Shown: in pieces, positions 3,634-18,984 of the stretch
How the letters are laid out: each line of letters opens with the position of its first letter
Position numbering within the stretch: position 1 is the first letter of the stretch
IMG/VR virus record: IMGVR_UViG_3300009103_000163
Location: 1-23,178 of that record
Reading direction: 5' to 3' (one strand)
DNA length: 23,178 nucleotides
Source of the DNA: a virus
Position numbers and translations under genes: made by a program
Notes under the pieces: generated by a model
Told to the model about the DNA's origin: nothing
Seen by the model: the letters and a program-made list of their open reading frames with translations, nothing else
The model's database searches: none

Positions 3634-4335
3634 ATGAAAGAAATTGACCTTATTAAGAAGAAGTTGCCAGAGATACGCGACAGGGGTTACATCCCGACTC
3701 TTCGAAAAGGAAACACTGGAGTTGGATATACTTTTGAGTGTCTTTTTGGCATTGAAGAGAATAACGATTCTGGGGCGGATCTCAATGGAAAAATCGAGTT
3801 CAAGGCTGGACGCAAAGGCAAAAGCTGTAGAACATCGAGTTTTACTCAAGCCCCCATATGGCATTACCAGATTAGGGATATTATCAAAAAATACGGAAAA
3901 CCCCATCCCGAGGATTCCGATAGAATTAATTGGTATCCCTCTTTGAGTAGCGACACTAATCCTTCAGGCTTAATTTTGTCTATAGTCGGGGAGGATCTGT
4001 TGATTCGAGATCAAAATGAAGATTTGACACTTGGAGAAATACCAATGGAAGTGCTTCGATATCGCTTCCGGCGTAAATTGGACAATCTTCTTCTCGTATA
4101 CGCCGATTCTATGATGGTCGGAAAAGCAGAACACTTTCATTACAATGAAGCCTACCTCTGTCAAACCCCCGATCTTAAAAAGATCAAACATCTTATCGAG
4201 GAAGACCGGCTAGTTGTGGAGCCTCGATGCCATTTGTATAAATCAACTGGCAAGGTTAGAGATCGCGGCGTGGCTTTCCGTATTAATGGAAAACATCTTC
4301 GAAGTTTGTACGAGCATGTAGAAAAGATTCTATGA
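3634..4335 (+). CDS. MvaI/BcnI-family restriction-type endonuclease
   Basis: A 233-residue protein matching the MvaI/BcnI family, which has a MutH-like PD-(D/E)XK fold and cuts short CC(N)GG-type sites. The family signature is clear: RGYIPTLRKGNTGVGYTFE at 17-35, LFGIEENND at 37-45, and an active site with D49, E55 and K57 (GADLNGKIEFK). BcnI and MvaI act as monomers of about 230-250 residues, so the length fits. No DNA methyltransferase is found in the window, so the gene is an orphan here. A phage nuclease of this kind could degrade host DNA while the phage genome is protected by modified bases, or could be a homing or nicking enzyme; that is inference. Transcription starts at the ATG from a strong host-type promoter, which suggests early expression. 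It overlaps the next gene by ATGA. Confidence 0.8.
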   Translation: MKEIDLIKKKLPEIRDRGYIPTLRKGNTGVGYTFECLFGIEENNDSGADLNGKIEFKAGRKGKSCRTSSFTQAPIWHYQIRDIIKKYGKPHPEDSDRINWYPSLSSDTNPSGLILSIVGEDLLIRDQNEDLTLGEIPMEVLRYRFRRKLDNLLLVYADSMMVGKAEHFHYNEAYLCQTPDLKKIKHLIEEDRLVVEPRCHLYKSTGKVRDRGVAFRINGKHLRSLYEHVEKIL

Positions 4336-5397: not shown

Positions 5398-5631
5398 ATG
5401 AGAGTTGCAAAAACAAGGCTCCGAAAGATTATTAAAGAATCGCTTAATGAGATGGGTTATGCTAGCTCTCATGAAGAAAAAGCTTGGGCGAAAGAGAGAG
5501 AGGAGTTTGCCGGCAACACCATCATGGATCTAGAAGCGCTCCACGATCAGTTGTATGGTCGCTTTACAGATGATGAAAATAAAATACTCGATCAAGCAAT
5601 TGCTCTATTGAATAGAGAAGCCGGGAGTTGA
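5398..5631 (+). CDS. cassette protein 1 with N-terminal IIKE leader
   Basis: A 77-residue protein; GGAGG lies seven bases before ATG 5398. Residues 1-16 (MRVAKTRLRKIIKESL) match the shared amphipathic leader of the array: a basic helix ending in I-I-K-E. The rest is acidic and helical, with no recognised domain (REEFAGNTIMDLEALHDQL, DENKILDQAIALL). In T4, internal head proteins carry an N-terminal capsid-targeting sequence cut after (L/I)-x-E; the I-K-E here fits that pattern. Packaging is an inference. Confidence 0.75.
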   Translation: MRVAKTRLRKIIKESLNEMGYASSHEEKAWAKEREEFAGNTIMDLEALHDQLYGRFTDDENKILDQAIALLNREAGS

Positions 5632-5633
5632 TT

Positions 5634-5918
5634 ATGAGAATTACAAAGAAACAGATTACAAAAATTATTAAGGAAGAGTTACGACTCGCTGCTGAGTCCA
5701 CTCAGGCTCAAGATGCAGAATTGCACACCCTTGTTGATAAGCTGATTGGAGCTTGGGGACCAGAAGAGGTCGCCAAAGAGTTGGAGGGATTAGCTCAAGA
5801 AATAAGGATGGATCATGGTTCAGCCGATACTTCGTCCGGCGGTGAGATAAATATACCAGAAGCTCCCCCAATTGGCTCTCAAACTCACCAGAGGCGCCGC
5901 TTTTATAAGAACCGCTAG
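5634..5918 (+). CDS. cassette protein 2 with N-terminal IIKEEL leader
   Basis: A 94-residue protein; ATG 5634 follows GGGAG by six bases and lies two bases past the stop of the previous gene. The leader MRITKKQITKIIKEEL is followed by an acidic helical domain (ELHTLVDKLIGAWGPEEVAKELEGLAQEI) and a low-complexity Pro/Ser/Gly tail ending in basic RRRFYKNR. Only the first 17 or so residues resemble the neighbours. Confidence 0.8.
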   Translation: MRITKKQITKIIKEELRLAAESTQAQDAELHTLVDKLIGAWGPEEVAKELEGLAQEIRMDHGSADTSSGGEINIPEAPPIGSQTHQRRRFYKNR

Positions 5919-5934
5919 AAGGAAAAAACATTAA

Positions 5935-6624
5935 ATGAAATTCACAAAGAAGCAGATTAGAAGAATTATCAAGGAAGAGTTGGGCGATCCCGAAGCCGAA
6001 GGGCGCCTTGAGCGCGCGAGGCAGGTAGGTCTAAGCCGGACTGCGCGTCTTAAAGCCCCCTCCAGTGTTGAAGAGGTTGAACTAATTGCAGATCTGATGG
6101 CAAATGATCCCGAATTTAGAATTCTAAGCCCTTTCGTTGATAAGTTTAAAAAATACGCCCAGAGTGGTGGCGCGGCTATGAGTTCTTTAGAGGCTGCATT
6201 ACCAGAATATATACCGGGAAGGTTAATCGCATCTCTTGCCACCAAAGCAAAAGAGGCAATGACAGGCAGCGAAACGCCTATCCCGCAGCCCAAGCCCGCC
6301 GCGTCCGCAGCAGATATGGAAAGGTGGGAAAGTGATTATCTCAATGAAGGGAAAAATTTAAACCTCACCACACAGAAACTAGCTCAAATTATTAAAGAGC
6401 AGATAGCTGAGGTTGAACAAATGACCCTTAACCAGTCAAGCGTTGACGCAGTATTAAACATGGCTAAGCAGATTGAGCCAATGTTTAATGCGTTTCGGAA
6501 GTCCGCAGGACAATCTGAAGTTGCCGCTAGTGATCCTCTTTATGAACAGATCGAGGATATATTGATGGAGCTGCCTTATCAGCTCGAAGAAATTGCTCAG
6601 AAGATGAAAAAAGGAGGTATCTAA
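5935..6624 (+). CDS. cassette protein 3, two leader motifs
   Basis: A 229-residue protein from ATG 5935 (AAGGA upstream). The leader is MKFTKKQIRRIIKEEL. A second copy, TTQKLAQIIKEQI, lies near residues 144-156, as if two cassettes had been fused in frame. Between them is a helical domain (SSVEEVELIADLMANDPEFRIL) and a proline/alanine linker (PIPQPKPAASAAD); after the second motif comes another helical domain (SVDAVLNMAKQIEPMFNAF). No enzymatic motif is visible. If I-x-E sites are cut on capsid maturation, this protein would yield two products. Confidence 0.8.
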   Translation: MKFTKKQIRRIIKEELGDPEAEGRLERARQVGLSRTARLKAPSSVEEVELIADLMANDPEFRILSPFVDKFKKYAQSGGAAMSSLEAALPEYIPGRLIASLATKAKEAMTGSETPIPQPKPAASAADMERWESDYLNEGKNLNLTTQKLAQIIKEQIAEVEQMTLNQSSVDAVLNMAKQIEPMFNAFRKSAGQSEVAASDPLYEQIEDILMELPYQLEEIAQKMKKGGI

Positions 6625-6734
6625 TGAAGAATTTTACTCATAAATTATGGAACTTGTTTAACAGCAAACATTGTTGCTGCTGTTGTGGCTGCTGCCCGTG
6701 TGAGAAGTGTTTGGGAGGGTGCAAACTCAAGTGA
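6624..6734 (+). CDS. very short cysteine-rich protein
   Basis: A 36-codon frame whose ATG (6624) overlaps the preceding stop and follows a near-perfect Shine-Dalgarno (AAGGAGGT at 6611-6618). Residues 1-16 are MKNFTHKLWNLFNSKH; then come 10 cysteines in 17 residues: five in a row (17-21), then a Gly, two more, Pro-Cys, Cys29 and Cys33, ending with basic KLK. This Cys density suggests metal binding (metallothionein-like or an Fe-S/zinc cluster) or palmitoylation-like membrane contact after the amphipathic start. No family is recognised. The last codons overlap the GTG start of the next gene. Confidence 0.7.
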   Translation: MKNFTHKLWNLFNSKHCCCCCGCCPCEKCLGGCKLK

Positions 6735-7261
6735 AAATCTCAGAAAAAAATCTAGTTCAGCTTATCAAAGAAGGGCTGCGAAGAGAAGCCCCAAAAAAAA
6801 CACGGCTCAAGAGGATTATCAAGGAAGAGTTAGTGGTTCTTGCTGAAAGGCAGCGACCGGGGCACAGAGATCCCGAAAGTGGAAACTGGCAATATCCCGG
6901 TGATCCCGGCTATGATCCACGTAGAGATGATTCTCTACATCCCGCAAAGAGCGACTACGGCTTGGGAGAGGAGGAGTATTCAAGGGCTCTTCGTGCTCAT
7001 CCTGAAGGTGGTCCAGTCGATCCAAACTGGGAGCATCCACTTGAACATCTGCTTGAAATACGCTCGGAGCGACACCCTCAAGGTCAAAAGGTCGCCACAG
7101 CCAAGGGTGGTATGAAACCATATGAGCAGGGTTATGAGGCAGGCACAAGAGGTGATCGGTCTGAGATGCCACTAGAGAAATACGGCACACCTTTTTACGA
7201 TGCTTGGATGAGTGGCTGGGACGACGGGTTAGCTCAATTCCACGGAGGGGGCAGTTACTAA
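6731..7261 (+). CDS. cassette protein 4, tandem leader motifs
   Basis: A 176-residue protein starting at GTG 6731, inside the stop of the Cys-rich gene (GTGA), with GGAGGG 11 bases upstream. Two leader copies are back to back: VKISEKNLVQLIKEGL and KKTRLKRIIKEELV (about residues 21-34). The rest is hydrophilic, rich in G, P, D, H and R (GHRDPESGNWQYPGDPGYD), with a C-terminal part YEQGYEAGTRGDRSEM then FYDAWMSGWDDGL, which resembles short Gly/aromatic segments of small phage and ribosome-modulation-factor-like proteins. The function is unknown. Confidence 0.75.
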   Translation: MKISEKNLVQLIKEGLRREAPKKTRLKRIIKEELVVLAERQRPGHRDPESGNWQYPGDPGYDPRRDDSLHPAKSDYGLGEEEYSRALRAHPEGGPVDPNWEHPLEHLLEIRSERHPQGQKVATAKGGMKPYEQGYEAGTRGDRSEMPLEKYGTPFYDAWMSGWDDGLAQFHGGGSY

Positions 7262-7494
7262 TGAAAATCACAAAGAAGCAGTTAACAACAATAATCAAAG
7301 AAGAGAGGGCGAAGGTCTTGAAGGAACAAAGAAAAGCCCCAGATGCTAGATGGTGGGAGCTTGCATTCGGCAATGTCATTGAAGACGAAGTGGGTTATGG
7401 CGAGGTAGACCCGGAAACAAATCGCAATATCCTTGCTGCTTTGCAGAATATGGTTAGAAATATTAAAGACGAACTCCGAGGAGACGTGAGGTGA
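7261..7494 (+). CDS. cassette protein 5 with N-terminal IIKEE leader
   Basis: A 77-residue protein; GGAGG precedes ATG 7261, which overlaps the previous stop. The leader is MKITKKQLTTIIKEERAKVL. The remainder is a helical acidic domain (RWWELAFGNVIEDEVGYGEVD, then NILAALQNMVRNIKDEL). The stop overlaps the next start (GTGA). Confidence 0.8.
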   Translation: MKITKKQLTTIIKEERAKVLKEQRKAPDARWWELAFGNVIEDEVGYGEVDPETNRNILAALQNMVRNIKDELRGDVR

Positions 7495-7748
7495 AAATCA
7501 CAAAAGCCCAACTAAAACAAATCATAAAAGAAGAACTTAGTCAAACCAAAGGTGCTCCGATCCCCGGTGCTTTGGATAGTGCTGACGCTTGGTATAACAA
7601 ATTTATGGAAATGATCAAAACAGAGTTTGACTCTAGTGGATGGTCCATGGCTGGTATCGGTTCTGAATTGCTTGAGGCAATTGAGAGACTACAGCGTCAA
7701 GTCAAGGATGAGGTCGCTGCTACGAGCAGAAAGGATTATAGAGAATGA
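7491..7748 (+). CDS. cassette protein 6 with N-terminal IIKEEL leader
   Basis: An 85-residue protein starting at GTG 7491 within the previous stop. The leader MKITKAQLKQIIKEEL is encoded by DNA almost identical to that of the next gene: only three differences in the first 44 bases. The rest is a helical domain (SADAWYNKFMEMIKTEFDSSG, then LLEAIERLQRQVKDEV) with no similarity to the next gene. The sharp switch from identity to no similarity points to recent leader shuffling. Confidence 0.8.
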   Translation: MKITKAQLKQIIKEELSQTKGAPIPGALDSADAWYNKFMEMIKTEFDSSGWSMAGIGSELLEAIERLQRQVKDEVAATSRKDYRE

Positions 7749-7981
7749 AAATCACAAAAGCACAACTAAAGCAAATCATAAAAGAAGAGATTGATGCCAA
7801 TGGTGGTGGAGGTTTGCCACGTACTCACAAAGGCGAAACAATCACGCCTCAAAGCGTCGCTGGTGAGCTGTTTAATTTAGCCGCCAAGGTAGAGGCTCTA
7901 GGTGAGGACTTCTTTTCCGATAGCGATAGTTTAGCCGACTGGGTTAATCAATTTATGGCTAAACACAACATCATGCAGTAA
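7745..7981 (+). CDS. cassette protein 7 with N-terminal IIKEE leader
   Basis: A 78-residue protein with an ATGA overlap to the previous gene. The leader MKITKAQLKQIIKEEI equals that of cassette 6 apart from the last residue. The body has a glycine-rich linker (NGGGGLP) and a helical domain (SVAGELFNLAAKVEALGEDFFSD, then LADWVNQFMAKHN). Unknown function. Confidence 0.8.
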   Translation: MKITKAQLKQIIKEEIDANGGGGLPRTHKGETITPQSVAGELFNLAAKVEALGEDFFSDSDSLADWVNQFMAKHNIMQ

Positions 7982-7994
7982 AAGGAGCATTAAA

Positions 7995-8276
7995 GTGAAT
8001 ATTACCAAAGAACAACTTAAGAAAATTATCAAAGAAGAATTATTGAGAGAGGGTGAAGGCGATCCGGTTACTCTGCCTGCCGACGTGGTTTTCTCGCATA
8101 CCAAAGAGACGCAGCAAATTGAGTGGCTTCTTGAAAAAGACCCAGAGGCTCTGCCAGAAGCTCTAGAGCGTTTGAAGAAAGCTAACATGAAATTTTTTAA
8201 TGCAGTGATGGCAAGCAAGGGGCAGTACGCGCCTGAGCACAGCCAAGAATACACTGGTGGCAGAGGCGGACACTAA
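7995..8276 (+). CDS. cassette protein 8 with N-terminal IIKEEL leader
   Basis: A 93-residue protein starting at GTG 7995, preceded by AAAGGAG. The leader is MNITKEQLKKIIKEELLREG. The body is helical (TKETQQIEWLLEKDPEALPEA, then LERLKKANMKFFNAVMASK) and ends in a glycine/histidine tail (TGGRGGH). No known domain. Confidence 0.8.
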   Translation: MNITKEQLKKIIKEELLREGEGDPVTLPADVVFSHTKETQQIEWLLEKDPEALPEALERLKKANMKFFNAVMASKGQYAPEHSQEYTGGRGGH

Positions 8277-8277
8277 A

Positions 8278-8598
8278 ATGAACAAGGCACGCTTAAAGAA
8301 GATCATCAAAGAAGAACTTCTCAAGGAAATGATGTTCTCTGATGCGGATGCCAGACAGTATTTGACCGATCGGGCGGATAAATATCGACGTCAAGGTCTT
8401 GAAGGCATGGAAATAAAAATGCTGCTGCAAGACGATTTTATGGATGATCTTGGACACTTGCTTGATATTGCAGATTACGAAGATTTAATCGATCAATTGT
8501 CACAGCCTGCCCAAGAGCCCTCAAGCTTGCCGCGCAAGCCGATGACTCCCGACCGTCGACTGCGGAGGCTCAGTGCATTGGCAGAGAGTTCAAAATGA
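8278..8598 (+). CDS. cassette protein 9 with N-terminal IIKEEL leader
   Basis: A 106-residue protein; I prefer ATG 8278, just after the previous stop, because it places the leader MNKARLKKIIKEELLKEM at the N-terminus. The body is a helical domain (DADARQYLTDRADKYRRQGLEGMEIK, cut here) with an acidic LLDIADYEDLIDQL segment and a proline-rich basic tail (PSSLPRKPMTPDRRLRRL). It overlaps the next gene by ATGA. Confidence 0.78.
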   Translation: MNKARLKKIIKEELLKEMMFSDADARQYLTDRADKYRRQGLEGMEIKMLLQDDFMDDLGHLLDIADYEDLIDQLSQPAQEPSSLPRKPMTPDRRLRRLSALAESSK

Positions 8599-9182
8599 AC
8601 AAGACACGTTTAAAAAAAATCATTAGAGAAGAACTTCTTCGGGAAGCCCAATGGGGCAATTTCACTGGTGGAGCCGCGCCGCTGGACGAACCAGCGAGCG
8701 AGGGCGGCTCAATCCCAAAGGAACAGTTAAAGAAACTTTGGGACATATTCACTGACATGGGGAAGACCCCAGAAGAAATTTTGGCAACACCAGAGTTCAA
8801 AGAGGCGGGAATTCAAGATCCATCTCAACTGCACGAAGCAGTTTTAAAAAAAATCATCTTAGAGGAGCTACAAGAGGCTTGCGGAATTCAACCCTCACCT
8901 TCGCCCGTGGAGCCCTCTAAAGACCATTCTATGAGCCCTCAAGAGGGCGAGAGCCGGATGGCAAAGGGCAACCTTTGGCATCTGACTCAAGATGCTGCCG
9001 AGTTGTATGATCTGATGGGCAATAACGTGGATTTGCCCGAATGGGTCGAAGCAAAATTGACAAAAGCTGCCGATTATGTTTCCATGGTTAGGAAATATCT
9101 TTCTTATAAAGACGTCGAAGGCGCAATTCCTCAAGATCCAGAAGTTGCCATGATGGGCACGCTGGATGAATATGAGTCGTGA
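8595..9182 (+). CDS. cassette protein 10, two leader motifs plus conserved helical domain
   Basis: A 195-residue protein. The first leader is MNKTRLKKIIREELLREAQ; a second copy, EAVLKKIILEELQEACG, lies near residues 79-95, again suggesting two fused cassettes. Between them is a short helical domain (PKEQLKKLWDIFTDMGKTPEE, cut here). The C-terminal part (about 122-175) begins RMAKGNLWHLTQDAAELYDL and continues LPEWVEAKLTKAADYVSMV. A domain of this form (M-A-x-x-x-L-x-x-x-x-x-x-A-x-E-L, then L-P-x-W-V-x-x-K-x-x-K-A) is, to my recollection, common in marine phage proteins that also bear the IIKEE leader. The function is unknown. Confidence 0.8.
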   Translation: MNKTRLKKIIREELLREAQWGNFTGGAAPLDEPASEGGSIPKEQLKKLWDIFTDMGKTPEEILATPEFKEAGIQDPSQLHEAVLKKIILEELQEACGIQPSPSPVEPSKDHSMSPQEGESRMAKGNLWHLTQDAAELYDLMGNNVDLPEWVEAKLTKAADYVSMVRKYLSYKDVEGAIPQDPEVAMMGTLDEYES

Positions 9183-9632: not shown

Positions 9633-10691
9633 ATGAGTGACGAAAACGATTTTAGTGATGATTTTGATTTTGTAGATCATTACGGTTCAGATGAGGCAGA
9701 GGCTAGTGAGGACGCACTGCCAGAAAATGAAGCAATTAGTGCAATTAATTGTGGTTTTATTGGAGTTGGTGGAGGAGGCGGAAAGCTAGTTAAAGCTTTT
9801 ATTGACTTAGGGTTCAATAAATCTCTTCTTGTCAATACGACTGAAAAAGATCAGCCTGATGGTGTAGATGATTCCCACTTGGTTTTAATTCCAGATGCAG
9901 ACGGTGTAGGAAAGGATGTTGTTTATGGCAAAAAAGTGCTTAAAGACAACAGCGCCGTGGTGGAAGATGCCCTCAGAACGAAGCTTGGTAAGGTAGACTG
10001 GCTCTTTATCTTCGCTGGAGGTGGTGGTGGCACTGGTAGTGCTAGTGGGGCATTACATGACGTTTTTGAGCGTTATTTAAAATCCATTGAAGCCGACGGC
10101 TCTGTGGTGTATGTGGTCACGGTGCCTTCTGCTCAGGAGTCTTTAAATGACACCATTAAGAGCAATGCAAACACTTTGCTGGGTGATGTTGAGGGCAAGC
10201 CTCACATTGTCCTGAGCAATGAGAAACAACTTCAACTCTTGCGCGGGAAAGTCGGAATATTGAACATGTATTCACTAGCGAACAAGACTTTTGCCAAATT
10301 GTTTCACCAAATTTTAAAGTTGGCAGCAGAGCACTCACCAATCCAAACATTTGACTCGAAAGACTTGGACAGTTGTCTCAAAACTGACGGTAGAATGTTT
10401 TTGGGTTCTACAGTGGTGAAGGATCCTTCGATTCCACGACTAGGAGCGACAATCCTACAGAACTGCCTAAAGAGATCTCCCTGTCCACAACCAAGAGGCA
10501 AGGGGGACGCGGGTTCTCTCTTGTTGGTAATCACCCCAGAAATGGCAGACGATCCTGATATCAGCAAAGGACTGGAAGCTGCTATTTCTTATGTAGGTTC
10601 TCGAACCGGCACTCTATTTTCGGGAGTGTATGTAAGGGATAATCTACCGGGCTTGATTGCAATCATGACAATGAGCGGAGTCGACTGGTAA
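9633..10691 (+). CDS. FtsZ/tubulin-like GTPase
   Basis: A 352-residue protein; AGGAGGG precedes ATG 9633 (a GTG at 9612 is in frame but lies within the promoter motif). Residues 1-35 are an acidic extension. GTPase motifs follow: T1 loop GVGGGGGK at 44-51, LLVNTTEKD at 65-73 in place of the FtsZ NTDAQ segment, and the tubulin signature GGGGGTGSASGA at 129-140. VVYVVTVPS (158-166) matches the strand before T5, and FDSKDL at 240-245 supplies Asp241 and Asp244 in the T7 loop region that completes the GTPase site of the neighbouring subunit. The C-terminal domain is complete (LLLVITPEM, LIAIMTMSG), but the FtsZ C-terminal tail for FtsA/ZipA is absent. It probably forms filaments; phage tubulins such as PhuZ centre and segregate phage DNA. 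It heads the long operon. Confidence 0.85.
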   Translation: MSDENDFSDDFDFVDHYGSDEAEASEDALPENEAISAINCGFIGVGGGGGKLVKAFIDLGFNKSLLVNTTEKDQPDGVDDSHLVLIPDADGVGKDVVYGKKVLKDNSAVVEDALRTKLGKVDWLFIFAGGGGGTGSASGALHDVFERYLKSIEADGSVVYVVTVPSAQESLNDTIKSNANTLLGDVEGKPHIVLSNEKQLQLLRGKVGILNMYSLANKTFAKLFHQILKLAAEHSPIQTFDSKDLDSCLKTDGRMFLGSTVVKDPSIPRLGATILQNCLKRSPCPQPRGKGDAGSLLLVITPEMADDPDISKGLEAAISYVGSRTGTLFSGVYVRDNLPGLIAIMTMSGVDW

Positions 10692-10694
10692 TAT

Positions 10695-13600
10695 ATGAAA
10701 GTCAATTTTGAAATTAAGAATCTAAGCGACGTGGATATCAGTTCTTTTAAGAAGATCTTAGAGGAACTGATTCCTTTTGTGCAAGATCGTTTAGGTTATG
10801 ATAAGCCAGTTAAGGTGCTTTTCATTTCAGATCCAGAGAACGCAATAAATGTTCTTGGAAAGACGGCACACTATGCTCCCGACACACACACTGTTACGAT
10901 CTATGTTGATAATAGGCACCCAAAGGATATGTTAAGAAGTGTGGCGCACGAATTGGTGCATCATGCACAAAATTGTAGAGGCGAATTTGATGGTGGGTGC
11001 TCAACTGAAGCGGGCTATGCACAGACAGACGCGCACTTAAGAGACATGGAGAGGGAGGCATACGAGAAAGGAAACTTGTGCTTTCGAGATTTTGAGGACC
11101 AGCTTAAGACTAACAAAAAAAAACAAACTATTTATATTAACGTCATGAAAGAAGGTCTCAAACCAAAGTATATTAAAGAAGGTTTTAGCGATAGTACGCT
11201 TTGCCGAGGCAATTGTAAATCTGAAGCAGAAGCTGGTGCTTACTGTGGTAAAGTCGGGGTCTCGCTGGCTGAAAGCGGCAGACATAAGCTAAGTCGGGAG
11301 AGGATAAGGGAAATTGTAAAAAAAGCTTTACAAGAGAGAACACAGGTTACATGTGAGTTCGGTGGACCTAATCAAGTCATTCCTGAAGCAACTGCAACGG
11401 AAACGGCTTCTGCGATTGGTCAGGCGGCTTTCGGAGGAGATCACACGGAGCCCGATGCTCCATATCAAAAAATTTGTGTAAAAGGAGGGGGCTTTTCTCC
11501 ACTGGGAGAGTCACTAAATAAAGGAACTAAAATTATGAATAAAAAAAATAAACTGGGTCTAACTTCTCTATATGAGGGATGGGACAAATTCTTACAAGAG
11601 GCTGGTCGACCACATAGTATGCGTGGTGGTAGGACCATGGCAGATCTCGACCGCGAGGCGAAGATGAGAGAAACGGATCCTCGCTCTATCGGGCTATCTA
11701 CCAAAATCAACAAAGAGTTTCCTGATGCGATTGTAAAGCAGCAGGGCGACGAACTGGTTGTTGTGCTTGGCGACCCAAGTGATGTGGTTGCGCTACAGCA
11801 AGACCCAGACATGCAGCGGTGGATGAGCGATGAAATCGGTGATTGGGCGGCAACAGATGATGGGTTTGTTGTTTCGCTACAAGGCGGTTTGAACGAATCT
11901 GGTTGGGGTGAGGACGAGTACATGGATGTGCTTGAAGACGAATTTCCATGGCTAGCTAAATCTGTGCAGTCTCAGGAAATTCCCGCCGAAGTAGCTGTGC
12001 AACTGGCAAAGGAATACGGCTCAGAGGAGGAGACCGAGGAGCAAATGAATGAGTGGGGTGGAAGACCCTATGATCCAACCGTTCCCGGCGATTTCCAACG
12101 CTATCGAGACAACCCGACCGGCGATGCTGAGTATCCCATGACAGCAAAGCAAGAACGAAAATTTCAAGTTGGCGATCAGGTTAGGGTGGTCGACGGTGGG
12201 CTTCGCGGAGCAACAGGAGAAATTATTGAACCAATTACACTTGTAACTGGAGAGTCGGGGTTTGTTATCCTTCTAGATTCGCCAGCCGATAAGAAAGTTT
12301 TTGGTCAAGCGGGTGATGAGGTTCCTGTCGCCGCTGACAAGCTAGCCCCACCAATGAGTGCTATTAACGAAGAAGACCCGTCCAACGACAATGAGGAGGA
12401 TACCATGACCACAACACAAGTTAGCAAAAGAGCAGTTTTAGAGGCTGTTATTCGTAAATCTCTAATTGGTGAGAACATCGACCTTGAGCAGTTTCCAAAT
12501 CCGCTTCCAACCAATCAAGGTGGTGAAACCTTTCTCTCAAAAGGACTTAGGGATGGTGATAAGGGGGATGATAGGGTCGAAGCCGGACCAAAATCCCTCG
12601 CCGCTGCGGCGGCGAAGCCATCACAAAGTGCGATTTATCTCGGCAAGGCATTGGGAATGGCTATGGGGCCTATGGGTGATGGAGGAAACTTAAAGGCGAT
12701 TATTTCCGCAGATGGCTATATTCTTGATGGTCATCATCGATGGGCGGCAACCATGTTTAATAATCCCGGTGCAGACGTGGGAGGCACTGGAATTGAAATG
12801 AACATGCAGGAACTAATTCCAATTCTGCGCGCGGCGGGTGATGCTTATGGAAATGATCGGCGTGGTGAGCCATCAGGCGGAGACAAGAATATTTTCAAGG
12901 CAACAATTAAAGATGTAGTTGCAACCTTGAAAGTACTCAACAAGGGCACTGAGCATAATTCCCCCGGTGATGCGAAAAAGTGGCTAGACGAGATTGGTGG
13001 TATCGACGTGCTGGAGAAACGACTCGCCGCAATCAAGGCGAAGGGTGCTGATGTATCCGCTGCGCCAGCAAGAGCAGAAATGCCGGTGATTGATGCAGAT
13101 AAGGGAGAAGATCAGAATATTGCAACAAGATTAAAGAAGGGCGCAATTGATATCAAGCCTCCATATACGGAACTACCAGATGATAAGAAAAAAGATGATA
13201 GTAAACCCATACATCTCGAAAATTTGAATGAGTATCGGGAGGATTATGGGAAAGTCGACACGGGGAACCCCTTAGAAGATAAGAAGCAAGAATTCAATGC
13301 AAAATGGATGTACTATAATGAAGAGTGGCGGCACATGGATCCTGACGAAGAGGAGTGGTGGAATAGCGCCCTTGACGCGCTTTCGAAAGAGATTAAAGCC
13401 ATGGAAGGTGGTGTTGACCAACACGCTCACCTTCGCACGGGAGGGCTCACCGAGCGCCGACAAAAGCGACGCCATAACGAAAGATATGGTCTCTTAATGG
13501 AGCGAATGCTTGGAATTCAGAATTTAAGCCCGATCGGAACCATGGAGAGTCGGACAAATTGGCTTTTTGAAGAGGAGGAAGAGGAGGGGTCAGATCCACA

Positions 13601-13739
13601 CGCATATTGTCCCGAAGAAAGCTATCTTTCTGCACAAGAAGCAGAAAAGGAGAAAGAAAAGAGTGAAAATTCGGGAAATTGGTCAGATTCTGAGATCGAT
13701 AAACTAGCAAAACATTCAAAAGATTCAAAAAATGGTTGA
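10695..13739 (+). CDS. multidomain virion-associated-like protein: HExxH peptidase, SH3-like and ParB-like domains
   Basis: A 1014-codon frame three bases after the tubulin stop. Residues 1-130 are a zinc metallopeptidase domain: HELVH at 85-89, and EREAY (119-123) offers the third ligand. A lysine-rich linker follows (about 139-146). Residues 164-215 contain a Cys-containing segment and a leader-like helix (LSRERIREIVKKALQE). Residues 281-303 (KLGLTSLYEGWDKFLQEAG) are another helix of that kind. Residues about 488-553 begin KFQVGDQVRVVDGGLRGATG, an SH3-like domain. Residues 571-590 (MTTTQVSKRAVLEAVIRKSL) form a further leader-like helix, and residues about 640-735 are a ParB/sulfiredoxin-like domain with YILDGHHRWAA around 678. 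The C-terminus is acidic and helical. Internal ATGs with plausible ribosome sites (11145, 11535, 12405) coincide with the leader-like helices, so this may be several genes fused or read in frame. Confidence 0.75.
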   Translation: MKVNFEIKNLSDVDISSFKKILEELIPFVQDRLGYDKPVKVLFISDPENAINVLGKTAHYAPDTHTVTIYVDNRHPKDMLRSVAHELVHHAQNCRGEFDGGCSTEAGYAQTDAHLRDMEREAYEKGNLCFRDFEDQLKTNKKKQTIYINVMKEGLKPKYIKEGFSDSTLCRGNCKSEAEAGAYCGKVGVSLAESGRHKLSRERIREIVKKALQERTQVTCEFGGPNQVIPEATATETASAIGQAAFGGDHTEPDAPYQKICVKGGGFSPLGESLNKGTKIMNKKNKLGLTSLYEGWDKFLQEAGRPHSMRGGRTMADLDREAKMRETDPRSIGLSTKINKEFPDAIVKQQGDELVVVLGDPSDVVALQQDPDMQRWMSDEIGDWAATDDGFVVSLQGGLNESGWGEDEYMDVLEDEFPWLAKSVQSQEIPAEVAVQLAKEYGSEEETEEQMNEWGGRPYDPTVPGDFQRYRDNPTGDAEYPMTAKQERKFQVGDQVRVVDGGLRGATGEIIEPITLVTGESGFVILLDSPADKKVFGQAGDEVPVAADKLAPPMSAINEEDPSNDNEEDTMTTTQVSKRAVLEAVIRKSLIGENIDLEQFPNPLPTNQGGETFLSKGLRDGDKGDDRVEAGPKSLAAAAAKPSQSAIYLGKALGMAMGPMGDGGNLKAIISADGYILDGHHRWAATMFNNPGADVGGTGIEMNMQELIPILRAAGDAYGNDRRGEPSGGDKNIFKATIKDVVATLKVLNKGTEHNSPGDAKKWLDEIGGIDVLEKRLAAIKAKGADVSAAPARAEMPVIDADKGEDQNIATRLKKGAIDIKPPYTELPDDKKKDDSKPIHLENLNEYREDYGKVDTGNPLEDKKQEFNAKWMYYNEEWRHMDPDEEEWWNSALDALSKEIKAMEGGVDQHAHLRTGGLTERRQKRRHNERYGLLMERMLGIQNLSPIGTMESRTNWLFEEEEEEGSDPHAYCPEESYLSAQEAEKEKEKSENSGNWSDSEIDKLAKHSKDSKNG
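11127..11135 (+). promoter_or_regulatory. ACTATTTAT motif inside a reading frame (site D)
   Basis: The exact 9-mer lies 10 bases before the in-frame ATG at 11145 and directly after a run of nine A. It may be an internal promoter or a relic of an intergenic gap between two genes now read as one. Confidence 0.35.
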
Positions 13740-14066: not shown

Positions 14067-16178
14067 ATGTCGACACGCCCTGTGATTCTAGAAGGTGGTT
14101 TGGGTGGTCATATGGACCATCTTTATGAAAATCCAAACCTCACGTTCGGGGAAATGAAAGAGATTTTTCGTCTTGCCGCCTCGGGAGAACTTGAGGGCAC
14201 TCAAAAAGTCGATGGACAGAACATTTTTCTCTCTTATTCTCTTACAAGAGGTCATGCAATTGCTGCGCGCAATAAAACCCACCTTAAAGCCGGCGGGATG
14301 AATGCCCAAGAACTTGCAAACTTCTTTAAAGGCAGGGATGCGCTTCAAAAAGCCTTTGTCGATGGATTTCGGGCTTTTGAAGAGGCTGTTGCTTCGTTTT
14401 CCGATGAAGAAATTGTTGGCGCTTTCGGGCGAGATGGAGAAATCTACTATAGTGCCGAAGTAATTGAACCTGCCAACGCAAATGTTATTGATTACGACGA
14501 ACAGGTCTTAAATATCCATCGCAGTGGTCATGGAGAGGTTGAGCGAGAAACAGCAAACGTTGTTGCTTCGGATAAAGACCCAAAAATGCAGAAATCCTCT
14601 GCTATTCTCGACGCGGCGATCTCAAAAATAGAAAATACTAAGCAATCTAACAATTTTAGAGTTCAAAGGGGCTCAATTGAGAAGCTTAAGTCTGTTTTAG
14701 ATGGAAAACATGCTGAAGAAGCCATTTCGAGGTTAGAAGCCATCGTCGGGGGAGATTCTGAGACAGTAGGCGAGTTTGTTGTGAAAAAGCTTAAGCCAGT
14801 TGTCCAAAAGGGCGTAAAATTACCCAAAGACAAACAAAATATGTTAATTCAGAAAATGTTGGGCTCAAAGGGAATAAATAAAAGAGAAATCAAGAAAGGA
14901 CTGGACGAGGAGGGGCAAAAAGCAGTTGAACAACTACTCTCGCAGAGTAAAACGATTTTAAAAACAATAATAAAGCCGATAGAGCTAGTGGTACACGATT
15001 TTGCTGTCGATGCGCTTCAAGGGATGCAAAGCATTTTTATGCTTGGCGCTCAGGAACCCAAAGTGCAGAAATTAAGGGACAAAGTTGCTGCTGAAATTCA
15101 ATCGATCGAAGCCAGTGGAGACGAAGCCAACATGGCAAAGCTAAAATCTCAACTTGAGAAAATGAAGTATGCAGAAAGAGGTTTAGAAGGCATCACGACG
15201 GCTGCCGAGGGCTTTGTTTTTGATTTTAACGGACACACTTATAAGCTTACTGGCAACTATGCCCCAATCAATCAAATTTTGGGCATACTTAGATATAAGA
15301 GGGGTGGGAAAGAGGAAGTAAATGAATCTCTTGCTCGGGGGTCTGGTATTGCTCTTGTTCCCGGTGGTTTTAAGCCCCCTCACGCTGGACATTACGAGTT
15401 GGCGGCATGGGCTGGTTCCCAGCCGGGAGTAGATAAGGCAATTGTGCTGGTTTCTCCTCTAGAGAGAGACACAGTTGACGTCGCACAATCATTAGCCATA
15501 TGGGAGATTTACAAATCTCTTGGCGGAAACTTTGAAGTAGAAGAAAGCGGCGTAAATTCTCCAGTTGGCGCAGCATATGAATACGTTGACAACAAGGCTC
15601 GACCGGGCGATACGATTTATGTAATTAAAGGAGAGAAGGACCGTGGAGATAAAAGATTCCAAGATATGCGCGGTCGGAAAGAAGGTGTTGAAGTGAAAGA
15701 ACTGGTTTCACCAACTTTTGCAGGTGGTGTTAGCGGCACAGTAATGAGAAGTTATATCAAAAAAGGTGATGTAAAGAGTTTTCAAGCCGCTTTGCCTGCC
15801 GGTCTTGATCAATCCTCCAAAGATAAGGCTTGGGAAGTTGTTTCTAGCGGAAATATCAACCTGCAAGAGTATTTAAAGCTAGTTATTAATGAAGTTTTAG
15901 AGGCAATGCCGAATGCCCCTAGAGATTTTGGAAGACTCGCGGTAGCGGCTCTTGATGGTGAAGAATTGACTCAAAACGTGAGGGCTATTGAAAAAAACGC
16001 CCATATGGGCTTTGGGGCTATTGAGGAAGAAGTGGATGAAATAGAAACAATTGAAGAGGTTTCTGCGATGGGCATGGTAGGTGGTGGTTCTATAGAGGGC
16101 GGAGCAAAGAGCCCATGGACTGACTTTAGTGAAGCTGACAATGAAAAACAAAAACCGGGAGAAAATAATGGAATATAA
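14067..16178 (+). CDS. bifunctional-looking nucleotidyltransferase: KxDG ligase-like domain plus HxGH adenylyl/cytidylyltransferase domain
   Basis: A 703-residue protein with GAGGGAGA before its ATG. The N-terminal part has the motif order of the covalent nucleotidyltransferase (DNA/RNA ligase) superfamily: motif I KVDG at 47-50, a GEIYYSAEV strand at 124-132 in the place of motif III, EGFVF at 381-385 for motif IV and YKLTG at 392-396 for motif V. A long helical insert (about 160-375) separates III from IV, which is unusual. Residues about 422-575 form a class I nucleotidyltransferase domain: GIALVPGGFKPPHAGHYELA with HAGH at 439-442, and SGTVMR at 556-561 in the place of the ISSTxIR motif of NMN adenylyltransferases. 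A leader-like helix LKLVINEVLEAM follows, then an acidic tail ending EEVSAMGMVGGGSIEGGA. Substrates are unknown; tRNA/RNA repair or NAD metabolism are possible. Confidence 0.75.
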   Translation: MSTRPVILEGGLGGHMDHLYENPNLTFGEMKEIFRLAASGELEGTQKVDGQNIFLSYSLTRGHAIAARNKTHLKAGGMNAQELANFFKGRDALQKAFVDGFRAFEEAVASFSDEEIVGAFGRDGEIYYSAEVIEPANANVIDYDEQVLNIHRSGHGEVERETANVVASDKDPKMQKSSAILDAAISKIENTKQSNNFRVQRGSIEKLKSVLDGKHAEEAISRLEAIVGGDSETVGEFVVKKLKPVVQKGVKLPKDKQNMLIQKMLGSKGINKREIKKGLDEEGQKAVEQLLSQSKTILKTIIKPIELVVHDFAVDALQGMQSIFMLGAQEPKVQKLRDKVAAEIQSIEASGDEANMAKLKSQLEKMKYAERGLEGITTAAEGFVFDFNGHTYKLTGNYAPINQILGILRYKRGGKEEVNESLARGSGIALVPGGFKPPHAGHYELAAWAGSQPGVDKAIVLVSPLERDTVDVAQSLAIWEIYKSLGGNFEVEESGVNSPVGAAYEYVDNKARPGDTIYVIKGEKDRGDKRFQDMRGRKEGVEVKELVSPTFAGGVSGTVMRSYIKKGDVKSFQAALPAGLDQSSKDKAWEVVSSGNINLQEYLKLVINEVLEAMPNAPRDFGRLAVAALDGEELTQNVRAIEKNAHMGFGAIEEEVDEIETIEEVSAMGMVGGGSIEGGAKSPWTDFSEADNEKQKPGENNGI

Positions 16179-17656: not shown

Positions 17657-17964
17657 GGGGACGAAATGGTTTCGACAGTGTGTTGAGAAATATTCGTGCA
17701 AGGCTGTGTGAGTGTGGCACAGTAAAAACACTCAACCTTTTAAACGCCAACGACAACGTTGAGTTTGATTACGCCTTAGCTGCTTAATCACGGGGTGGCA
17801 GCAACCTTGTTAACCAAAGCTGCAATCTAAGTTTCCAGTTTCTTTAAAGAGCTGGTGGTGCGCGGTGTGGGAAGTTTGTCAGAGTTCATAAACTGACTAA
17901 CCTTGTGAATGACGAATATTTGGAAGCATATTGGACCGGGGTTCGACTCCCCGCGTCTCCACCA
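17657..17964 (+). ncRNA. ssrA: tmRNA (transfer-messenger RNA)
   Basis: About 308 bases. The 5' end GGGGACG pairs with CGTCTCC before the ACCA at the 3' end (one G-U pair), making the tRNA-like acceptor stem. The conserved 5' GGTTTCGAC and the 3' T arm (CGGGG, TTCGACT, CCCCG) are both present, and the CCA is encoded. The reading frame inside starts with GCC at 17746 and ends TAA at 17785-17787, giving the tag ANDNVEFDYALAA. The ALAA end is the form read by ClpX. It is a one-piece tmRNA, shorter than E. coli's (about 363), so it probably has fewer or shorter pseudoknots. It rescues stalled ribosomes and marks the product for proteolysis. Only five bases separate it from tRNA-Asn, so they are probably one transcript. 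No clear promoter is seen. Confidence 0.95.
17746..17787 (+). other. tmRNA tag reading frame
   Basis: Resume codon GCC, then 12 codons and TAA. The peptide ANDNVEFDYALAA begins AND like many proteobacterial tags and ends YALAA like that of E. coli (ANDENYALAA), with three extra residues in the middle. Confidence 0.9.
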
Positions 17965-18110: not shown

Positions 18111-18350
18111 ATGAGCGAAGAGAATATTGACCCGTCATTTGGTAAGTCGTGGGAAAATGCATTTACCTATAAGACTTTTAAGGCTGCCGATGAAAAGAGA
18201 AATAAAATTTTAGAGTCTGGCAAGAAACAAGTAAAAGTGAAACGTCGTAGTGATGGCGCTTTTGTTGTCAAAACAAGAAATATTACTATCGAAACTCCCA
18301 AGAAGACAAAAAAAGCAAAGAAGCAAAAACGGGGTAACAATGAGGGATAA
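18111..18350 (+). CDS. small basic protein
   Basis: A 79-residue protein; AGGAGGT lies five bases before the ATG. Residues 12-55 (SWENAFTYKTFKAADEKRNK, then ILESGKKQVKVKRRSDGAFV) look like a small alpha/beta unit, and the last 25 residues are mostly K, R, T (PKKTKKAKKQKRG), likely nucleic-acid or membrane-lipid contacting. It overlaps clpP by 11 bases, so the two may be coupled. No family recognised. Confidence 0.7.
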   Translation: MSEENIDPSFGKSWENAFTYKTFKAADEKRNKILESGKKQVKVKRRSDGAFVVKTRNITIETPKKTKKAKKQKRGNNEG

Positions 18351-18984
18351 AATTTGGATGTCTGAACCTTCGAAGCCTCCAGAGGAGAGGGAGCAGACTC
18401 ATGAGATGCCTGTCATTGTTTTGGGAGGCGACACCGAGCCTCAAACAGACGACAGCGTAGAGGTGAATCAAAACAAGATCTTTTTTTACGCGGATGTTTC
18501 CCGTTCTGAAGTGCTCAAGCTAAACAAGCATATGGATAGTTTGCAGAAGAGATTGCAGACCAGTGCGATCCTTTTGGACTCCGACCCTGCTAATATTTTT
18601 CTTCATATTAATAGCTTTGGTGGTTCGTTGTTTGCTGGGCTGGCAGCAGTCGACTATATCAAAAAATGCAAAGTTCCGGTTCACACAGTTATTGATGGTT
18701 GTGCAGCCAGTGCAGCAACTTTGATGTCTGTTGTGGGACAAGAGCGAAAAATGCATCGCCATTCTTTTATGTTAATTCACCAGTTGTCAACACTTATGTG
18801 GGGCAAGTATGAAGATCTAAGAGATGATATGAAAAATAACGATCTTCTAATGAAGACAATTAAGGATATCTACATGGAACATACCAAGATTCCCAAGCGA
18901 CAACTAAACAAAATCCTTAAGCATGACCTCTGGTGGGACGCTGAGACGTGTCTGAAGTATGGTCTGGTTGATGAAATCATATAA
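18340..18984 (+). CDS. clpP: ClpP-type serine peptidase
   Basis: A 214-residue ClpP-family (S14) peptidase. ATG 18340 is preceded by GGGGTAAC and lies within the end of the previous gene. The fold signature FLHINSFGGSLFAGLAAVDY is at 87-106. The catalytic triad is intact: Ser124 in DGCAASAATL, His147 in FMLIHQ and Asp196 in KHDLWW, followed by the usual ending KYGLVDEI. The first 45 residues are a non-family extension rich in E, P and T, which in canonical ClpP would be a short loop that gates the chamber. It could be a tmRNA-linked degradation peptidase working with host ClpX, or a head maturation protease; many phage head proteases share this fold. The proximity to the tmRNA favours the first; there are no capsid genes here to support the second. 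Confidence 0.88.
   Translation: MRDKIWMSEPSKPPEEREQTHEMPVIVLGGDTEPQTDDSVEVNQNKIFFYADVSRSEVLKLNKHMDSLQKRLQTSAILLDSDPANIFLHINSFGGSLFAGLAAVDYIKKCKVPVHTVIDGCAASAATLMSVVGQERKMHRHSFMLIHQLSTLMWGKYEDLRDDMKNNDLLMKTIKDIYMEHTKIPKRQLNKILKHDLWWDAETCLKYGLVDEII

Follow-up and report, generated by a model that had tools for sequence, protein, structure and literature searches.

Variable internal proteins that share a common capsid-targeting sequence (CTS) are already known from the T-even phages. In T4 (Tequatrovirus), the CTS of the internal proteins IPI, IPII and IPIII is cut by gp21, a prohead protease that cleaves after L/I-x-E (PMC9026906), and the three proteins, Ip1-3, which have only their leader in common, act as inhibitors of different GmrSD restriction enzymes (PMC12373910). 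The propeptide removed from the T4 major capsid protein gp23 measures 65 residues, and propeptides in T4 and in giant phages can have several cut sites (PMC5694885). Here we describe an arrangement of a similar kind in a 23,178-base fragment of a marine phage (IMG/VR record IMGVR_UViG_3300009103_000163; this whole stretch is called the window below), in which ten consecutive small genes, all on the plus strand at positions 5398-9182, begin with a leader of consensus MKITKxQLKxIIKEEL (core KITKxQLKxIIKEEL, about 16 residues). As in the T4 internal proteins, a short N-terminal leader containing L/I-x-E stands on otherwise unrelated small proteins with variable bodies, the leader genes adjoin one another, and relatives of the window have a gp21-type protease and a gp23-type capsid protein. 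The leader is probably a capsid-targeting propeptide, which would dock to the prohead core and be cut by a protease of the Peptidase_S77 family, leaving the bodies to be kept with the DNA and injected.

The extent of the leader was assessed with a 16-column profile, built from the window copies and refined once. In 743,000 amino acids of fetched loci from marine viral contigs, the profile gave 401-416 matches, 322 of them distinct, and reversed versions of the same proteins gave none at the same cut-off; this bears out the pattern and extends it far beyond the window. The leader core begins one residue past the start codon in 424 of 435 open reading frames (ORFs), and only 15 ORFs hold more than one copy. 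The proteins are short (median length about 118 aa), and clustering of their bodies gives 260 groups, of which 233 are singletons. Across an alignment of 140 leader proteins, mean column identity was 5% and the near-invariant columns were confined to the leader. The similarity is thus not protein-wide, and these are not members of one conserved folded-domain family. When 140 representative bodies were scanned against PHROG and Pfam, very few gave a match, to 9 PHROGs and 5 Pfam families in all, none of them named for replication or lysis; one is a 'virion structural' match, one an L,D-transpeptidase, and a few others are common to one or two members each.

From its distribution in sequence collections, the leader is almost confined to phages. 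The matches listed for the leader DNA pattern in viral contigs are a lower bound, there being at least that many, and a near-identical pattern with a preceding ATG was found in only 3 contigs from the genomes of 84,980 species of bacteria and archaea. One of these three, PBIO01000025, is probably the same contig as the virus record G018, both being 101,404 long. Leader genes also occur in L349, L352 and L353 (NHDW01000006.1, 305,838 bases) and in L351 (PBIO01000025.1), which are binned as Methylococcaceae and Halobacteriovorax metagenome-assembled genomes; NHDW01000006.1 and PBIO01000025.1 are probably phage genomes misplaced in bacterial bins. A tblastn search of phage records with the leader as a short peptide gave no match, the 22-residue query being too short for that search.

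A rival explanation makes the leader a DNA or translation-start element that recombination has spread and that has no function as protein. The leader DNA of genes 6 and 7 of the array is indeed near-identical, with 3 mismatches in the first 44 bases (bases 1, 18 and 27), exactly as had been claimed for the genes at 7491 and 7745. Yet leader codons elsewhere vary freely among copies, and conservation therefore lies at the level of the protein. A position-specific amino-acid profile that holds over many contigs, and the coupling of a second [LI]-x-E beyond the leader core, further argue against a DNA element, which we consider hardly credible.

The genes that accompany the leader were surveyed in 31 large records, 27 of them chosen by the leader pattern and 4 as relatives of the window's 703-aa protein. 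All 31 carry the leader, in 2-41 copies per record. These long-contig relatives are T4-like: Peptidase_S77, the family of the T4 gp21 prohead protease, is encoded by 18 of the 31, in line with the prediction that the leader would occur in genomes with such a protease, and a gp23-type major capsid match is present in 15. In the 18 S77 records, the stretches within 12.5 kb of the protease gene hold 63 leaders where 26 would be expected by length, a count that is more description than test, since the fetched regions were selected with leader positions in view. All 63 are on the strand of the protease. Where head blocks can be seen, leader genes come first, and then the large terminase, the portal, small proteins and the S77 protease.

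The capsid proteins of these phages also indicate where cleavage may occur. The T4 gp23 site E65/A66 (the slash marking a cut, known or candidate) aligns with L-[RK]-E/[ASG] in 14 of 14 marine major capsid proteins, and the proteases of the leader phages should therefore have the T4 specificity, predicted here as L/I-x-E. In the leader, [IL]-x-E is found at residue 14 in 352 of 376 copies (94%), with E usually the next residue. The cleavage-like I-x-E proposed in the original prediction is accordingly present, but it is not the sole candidate. Farther along, a second [LI]-x-E occurs more often than expected, most frequently at residue 22 (90 versus 47 expected; Fisher p ~1e-21, or ~1e-19 for the non-redundant set), and G, A and E are over-represented after it. 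This second motif resembles the capsid site more than the first does; that of gene 10, LLRE/A, is identical to a capsid site. Because of this identity and of the G, A and E beside it, we think that the second [LI]-x-E is often the maturation cut, the first being a recognition element or an extra cut. A cut after IIKE, as had been proposed, would be less likely than a cut at the second L-x-E about 8 residues downstream, or additional to it.

Together, the sequences show a shared N-terminal leader that is nearly confined to phages, its association with S77 genes, and its agreement with the site at which the capsid protein is cut. The remainder of the scheme, from docking through cleavage and packaging to injection and what the bodies do, we infer, and it might proceed as follows. 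The basic amphipathic helix KITKxQLKxII would dock the small proteins on the prohead core during head assembly, such that one tag would serve to enclose many unrelated proteins in the head. A serine protease of the T4 gp21 type would then cut after the E of [IL]-x-E, either at IIKE/E near residue 14, at a second L-x-E/[G/A] somewhere near residues 18-24, or at the two sites together. With the tag released, the freed bodies would remain in the head alongside the DNA and be injected at the next infection, where host defences or physiology would probably be their target. Copying of the leader before another ORF could give new cargo, and fusion of leader genes would give rise to internal copies. 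Counter-defence is our leading guess for the function of the bodies, because the T4 proteins Ip1-3 likewise share only a leader and inhibit different GmrSD enzymes.

Several observations weigh against this assignment. The window itself contains no S77, capsid or terminase gene. No S77 gene is found in G009, G012, G021, G027 and G029, which share the window's 703-aa and acidic proteins, and in G001, G002 and G015, which do encode S77, the majority of leaders are far from the protease. S77 was absent from all 24 contigs of a control sample drawn by a random 14-mer (a scan with the single protein PhoH had reached only close relatives), and leader matches there were weak at most, but these contigs are unmatched for habitat, phage type and length. 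The first [IL]-x-E has E at P1', unlike the capsid site. The leader profile does not match T4, whose internal proteins read MKTYQEFIAE or MKTFKEF, and no mass spectrometry or proteomics of virions was found in the literature for any leader protein. Lastly, the bodies are mostly acidic, whereas T4 ipII and ipIII are basic (pI 9.6-9.7); this acidity is not peculiar to leader bodies, many other small genes of the leader phages being acidic too.

Acidic bodies, and the same head-gene neighbourhood, would also suit a tag that binds the core or scaffold and is never cleaved. In this case the helix would hold auxiliary proteins in or on the prohead, to be later degraded or released without injection, and T4 does offer core proteins, gp22, gp67 and gp68, that are broken up by gp21 (PMC9026906). 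However, few parts of the leader are as conserved as [IL]-x-E, a second site is over-represented past the leader core, and bodies that are unrelated and number in the hundreds suggest variable cargo rather than assembly factors. An uncleaved tag is thus unlikely.

The S77-negative records require separate consideration. G009 ends shortly after its leader array, and G012, G021, G027 and G029 are likewise fragments. Similarly, the ends of the S77-negative G009, G018, G020, G025 and G031 fall on or close to the array or the tubulin gene described below, and incomplete records may therefore explain part of the S77 negatives. Since the window has no protease gene, its membership rests on relatives: it is tied to the S77 phages by the leader, by bodies in common, and by the adjacent tubulin gene, which has 68% identity to that of G024, a record with both S77 and gp23. 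Alternatively, another protease, such as the ClpP-like protein encoded at 18250-18984, or host factors might process the leader in the lineage of the window, the T4-type link holding in the relatives only. This gene matches phrog_94, 'head maturation protease', at 5e-43, and its product may be a head protease or, instead, an enzyme of the Clp type; in addition, the five fragmentary records that have the 703-aa protein show no S77. Yet the ClpP-like gene sits among tmRNA, tRNA and PhoH genes, where no recognisable head block is seen, and the tubulin neighbour of the window has 68% identity to that of the S77- and gp23-encoding G024. Processing by a different protease is therefore highly improbable.

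The tubulin/FtsZ-like gene (9633-10691, plus strand; PF00091 E 2.4e-7, just below the cut-off) adjoins the array. Such a gene is present in many leader phages, often beside leader genes, and in several relatives it stands among them and near the terminase-portal-prohead protease block; a tblastn of the protein against INPHARED phage records gave no match. Its position raises the possibility that the leader is a docking tag for a structure other than the capsid, be it the neighbouring filament, a membrane or a replication compartment, and an amphipathic basic helix could bind membrane. However, no tubulin is present in 7 of the 18 records with leader and S77, two of which hold 28-29 leaders, nor in the leader-bearing cultured phage immuto, and docking of this kind leaves the [IL]-x-E motifs and the capsid cut-site match unexplained. 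We thus regard it as very unlikely, the idea of docking to tubulin having done poorly in this test of co-occurrence.

It thus appears that the capsid-targeting idea of the original prediction stands in its main part, with the N-terminal position of the leader, the hundreds of unrelated bodies, the proximity to S77 and the capsid L-x-E match in its favour, and with the head genes missing from the window and the lack of homology to the T4 signal against it. The best reading is that the marine leader system works like that of T4 without being a demonstrated member of it, the leader being unrelated in sequence and greatly expanded. T4 has three internal proteins, as compared with 2-41 leader copies per marine genome or fragment, and the marine leader is longer, at 16-22 residues versus 10 in IPIII. 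The marine bodies furthermore differ in being mostly acidic, some of the proteins possess internal copies, and their packaging is proposed by analogy with T4. The ejection proteins of phiKZ and SPN3US provide a second comparison, comprising many head-internal proteins with N-terminal propeptides, a gp21-related protease and several cut sites per propeptide (PMC5694885). Yet the SPN3US propeptides are mostly longer than 100 residues, and phiKZ cuts at S/A-x-E, unlike the marine relatives with their I/L-x-E and gp23-type capsid proteins.

A nearest cultured relative found is Flavobacterium phage vB_FspM_immuto (Immutovirus). It has MKITK-like leaders of the type MKKSQLRQIIKEAL, with a best E of 2e-6 and only four matches at E <= 0.5, and as in the marine phages its leader genes lie upstream of head genes, namely its terminase, gp20 portal, prohead protease and gp23. 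It differs in possessing a further leader type, NFxLxxFLxENKLTxNSxLLxE, in three genes (L211, NC_055915, 8807-9355 and 22632-23932). Yet another N-terminal leader, MKxLxxxWRxFLxE, is present on about 20 genes at the same loci as the MKITK type. This leader matches the same regular expression as those of T4 ipII and ipIII and is thus T4-CTS-shaped, but it occurs on different, tandem genes; in a record related to the window via the 703-aa protein, four such genes (L172:13182-15698) are close to MKITK-type genes. Several leader types ending in [LI]-x-E are found in one gene neighbourhood, with which a role as packaging signal fits well.

No earlier description of the leader or of marine internal virion proteins was found in the literature, the search covering open-licence papers. 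What is new is an unrelated leader in up to 41 copies, spread over marine T4-like phages, with internal copies and hundreds of family-less body types. Should the leader do a T4-like job, its profile would serve to pick out candidate injected proteins by the hundred, nearly all of them family-less and mostly from uncultivated ocean phages. A packaging signal would then have been reused to recruit new cargo, and the leader might be used as a new tag by which proteins are loaded into phage heads. We more tentatively suggest, as a possibility we would not yet lean towards, that the marine T4-like phages have a general system for loading cargo. A single cleavable tag, copied before new ORFs, would there produce injected effectors, with tens of different proteins per virion, and internal copies cut in the head would yield two effectors per gene. 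Unknown counter-defence or takeover proteins, hundreds of them, would in that case be recognisable by the tag alone.

In the window, all ten genes and leaders of the array described at the outset are present, as are the three extra internal copies that had been reported. Adjacent genes overlap or are 1-16 bases apart, with one 106-base gap as the sole exception. Gene 1 (5398-5631, 77 aa, MRVAKTRLRKIIKESL) has a body homologous to leader genes of L120 and L080, and a search for relatives of the body of gene 2 (5634-5918, 94 aa, MRITKKQITKIIKEEL) found none. Gene 3 (5935-6624, 229 aa, MKFTKKQIRRIIKEEL) contains the internal copy QKLAQIIKEQI near 6379. Gene 4 (6731-7261, 176 aa), which most plausibly starts at the GTG at 6731, begins with VKISEKNLVQLIKEGL, followed directly by the second copy TRLKRIIKEEL near 6806. 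Gene 5 (7261-7494, 77 aa, MKITKKQLTTIIKEER) has its second site at L-K-E/Q and shows 78% identity to L120:111-338. Gene 6 (7491-7748, 85 aa, GTG start, VKITKAQLKQIIKEEL) is followed by gene 7 (7745-7981, 78 aa, MKITKAQLKQIIKEEI) and gene 8 (7995-8276, 93 aa, GTG start, VNITKEQLKKIIKEELLRE/G). Gene 9 (8278-8598, 106 aa, MNKARLKKIIKEELLKE/M) most plausibly starts at the ATG at 8278, and gene 10 (8595-9182, 195 aa, MNKTRLKKIIREELLRE/A) holds the third internal copy, VLKKIILEEL, near 8844.

The claim that similarity ends after about 16 residues is correct for most of the bodies, which are unrelated, but has two exceptions. The body of gene 6 is a distant relative of that of gene 5 (E 0.025 without the leader; the two fall in a joint family alignment), and the C-terminal domain of gene 10 recurs in leader genes of many marine phages and is also shared with HTVC008M, S-SM2 and immuto. 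For the 7491 and 8595 proteins, AlphaFold gave models of low confidence (mean pLDDT 62 and 56); in these weak models, the leader helix is predicted to be set apart from the body by a low-confidence linker.

Beyond the tubulin gene, a 1014-aa protein (10695-13739) begins like a metallopeptidase (HELVHH), contains a segment resembling ParB (DGYILDGHHRW) as well as internal leader-like helices, and is possibly a multi-domain internal protein. The 703-aa nucleotidyltransferase-type protein (14067-16178, plus strand), which served as query for relatives of the window, shows a weak match to the phrog_3041 cytidyltransferase. A tmRNA gene with the tag ANDNVEFDYALAA (17657-17964) adjoins tRNA-Asn, with three further tRNAs, for Ile, Leu and Arg, nearby. 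A restriction endonuclease of the MvaI/BcnI family (3634-4335; Pfam E 6.6e-36) lies just upstream of the array, and a peptide deformylase is encoded at 233-829 (Pfam E 2.4e-45). On the minus strand, a trypsin-like protease (PF13365, 19509-20234) with a lipoprotein-like signal (LSSC) is common to many of the relatives.

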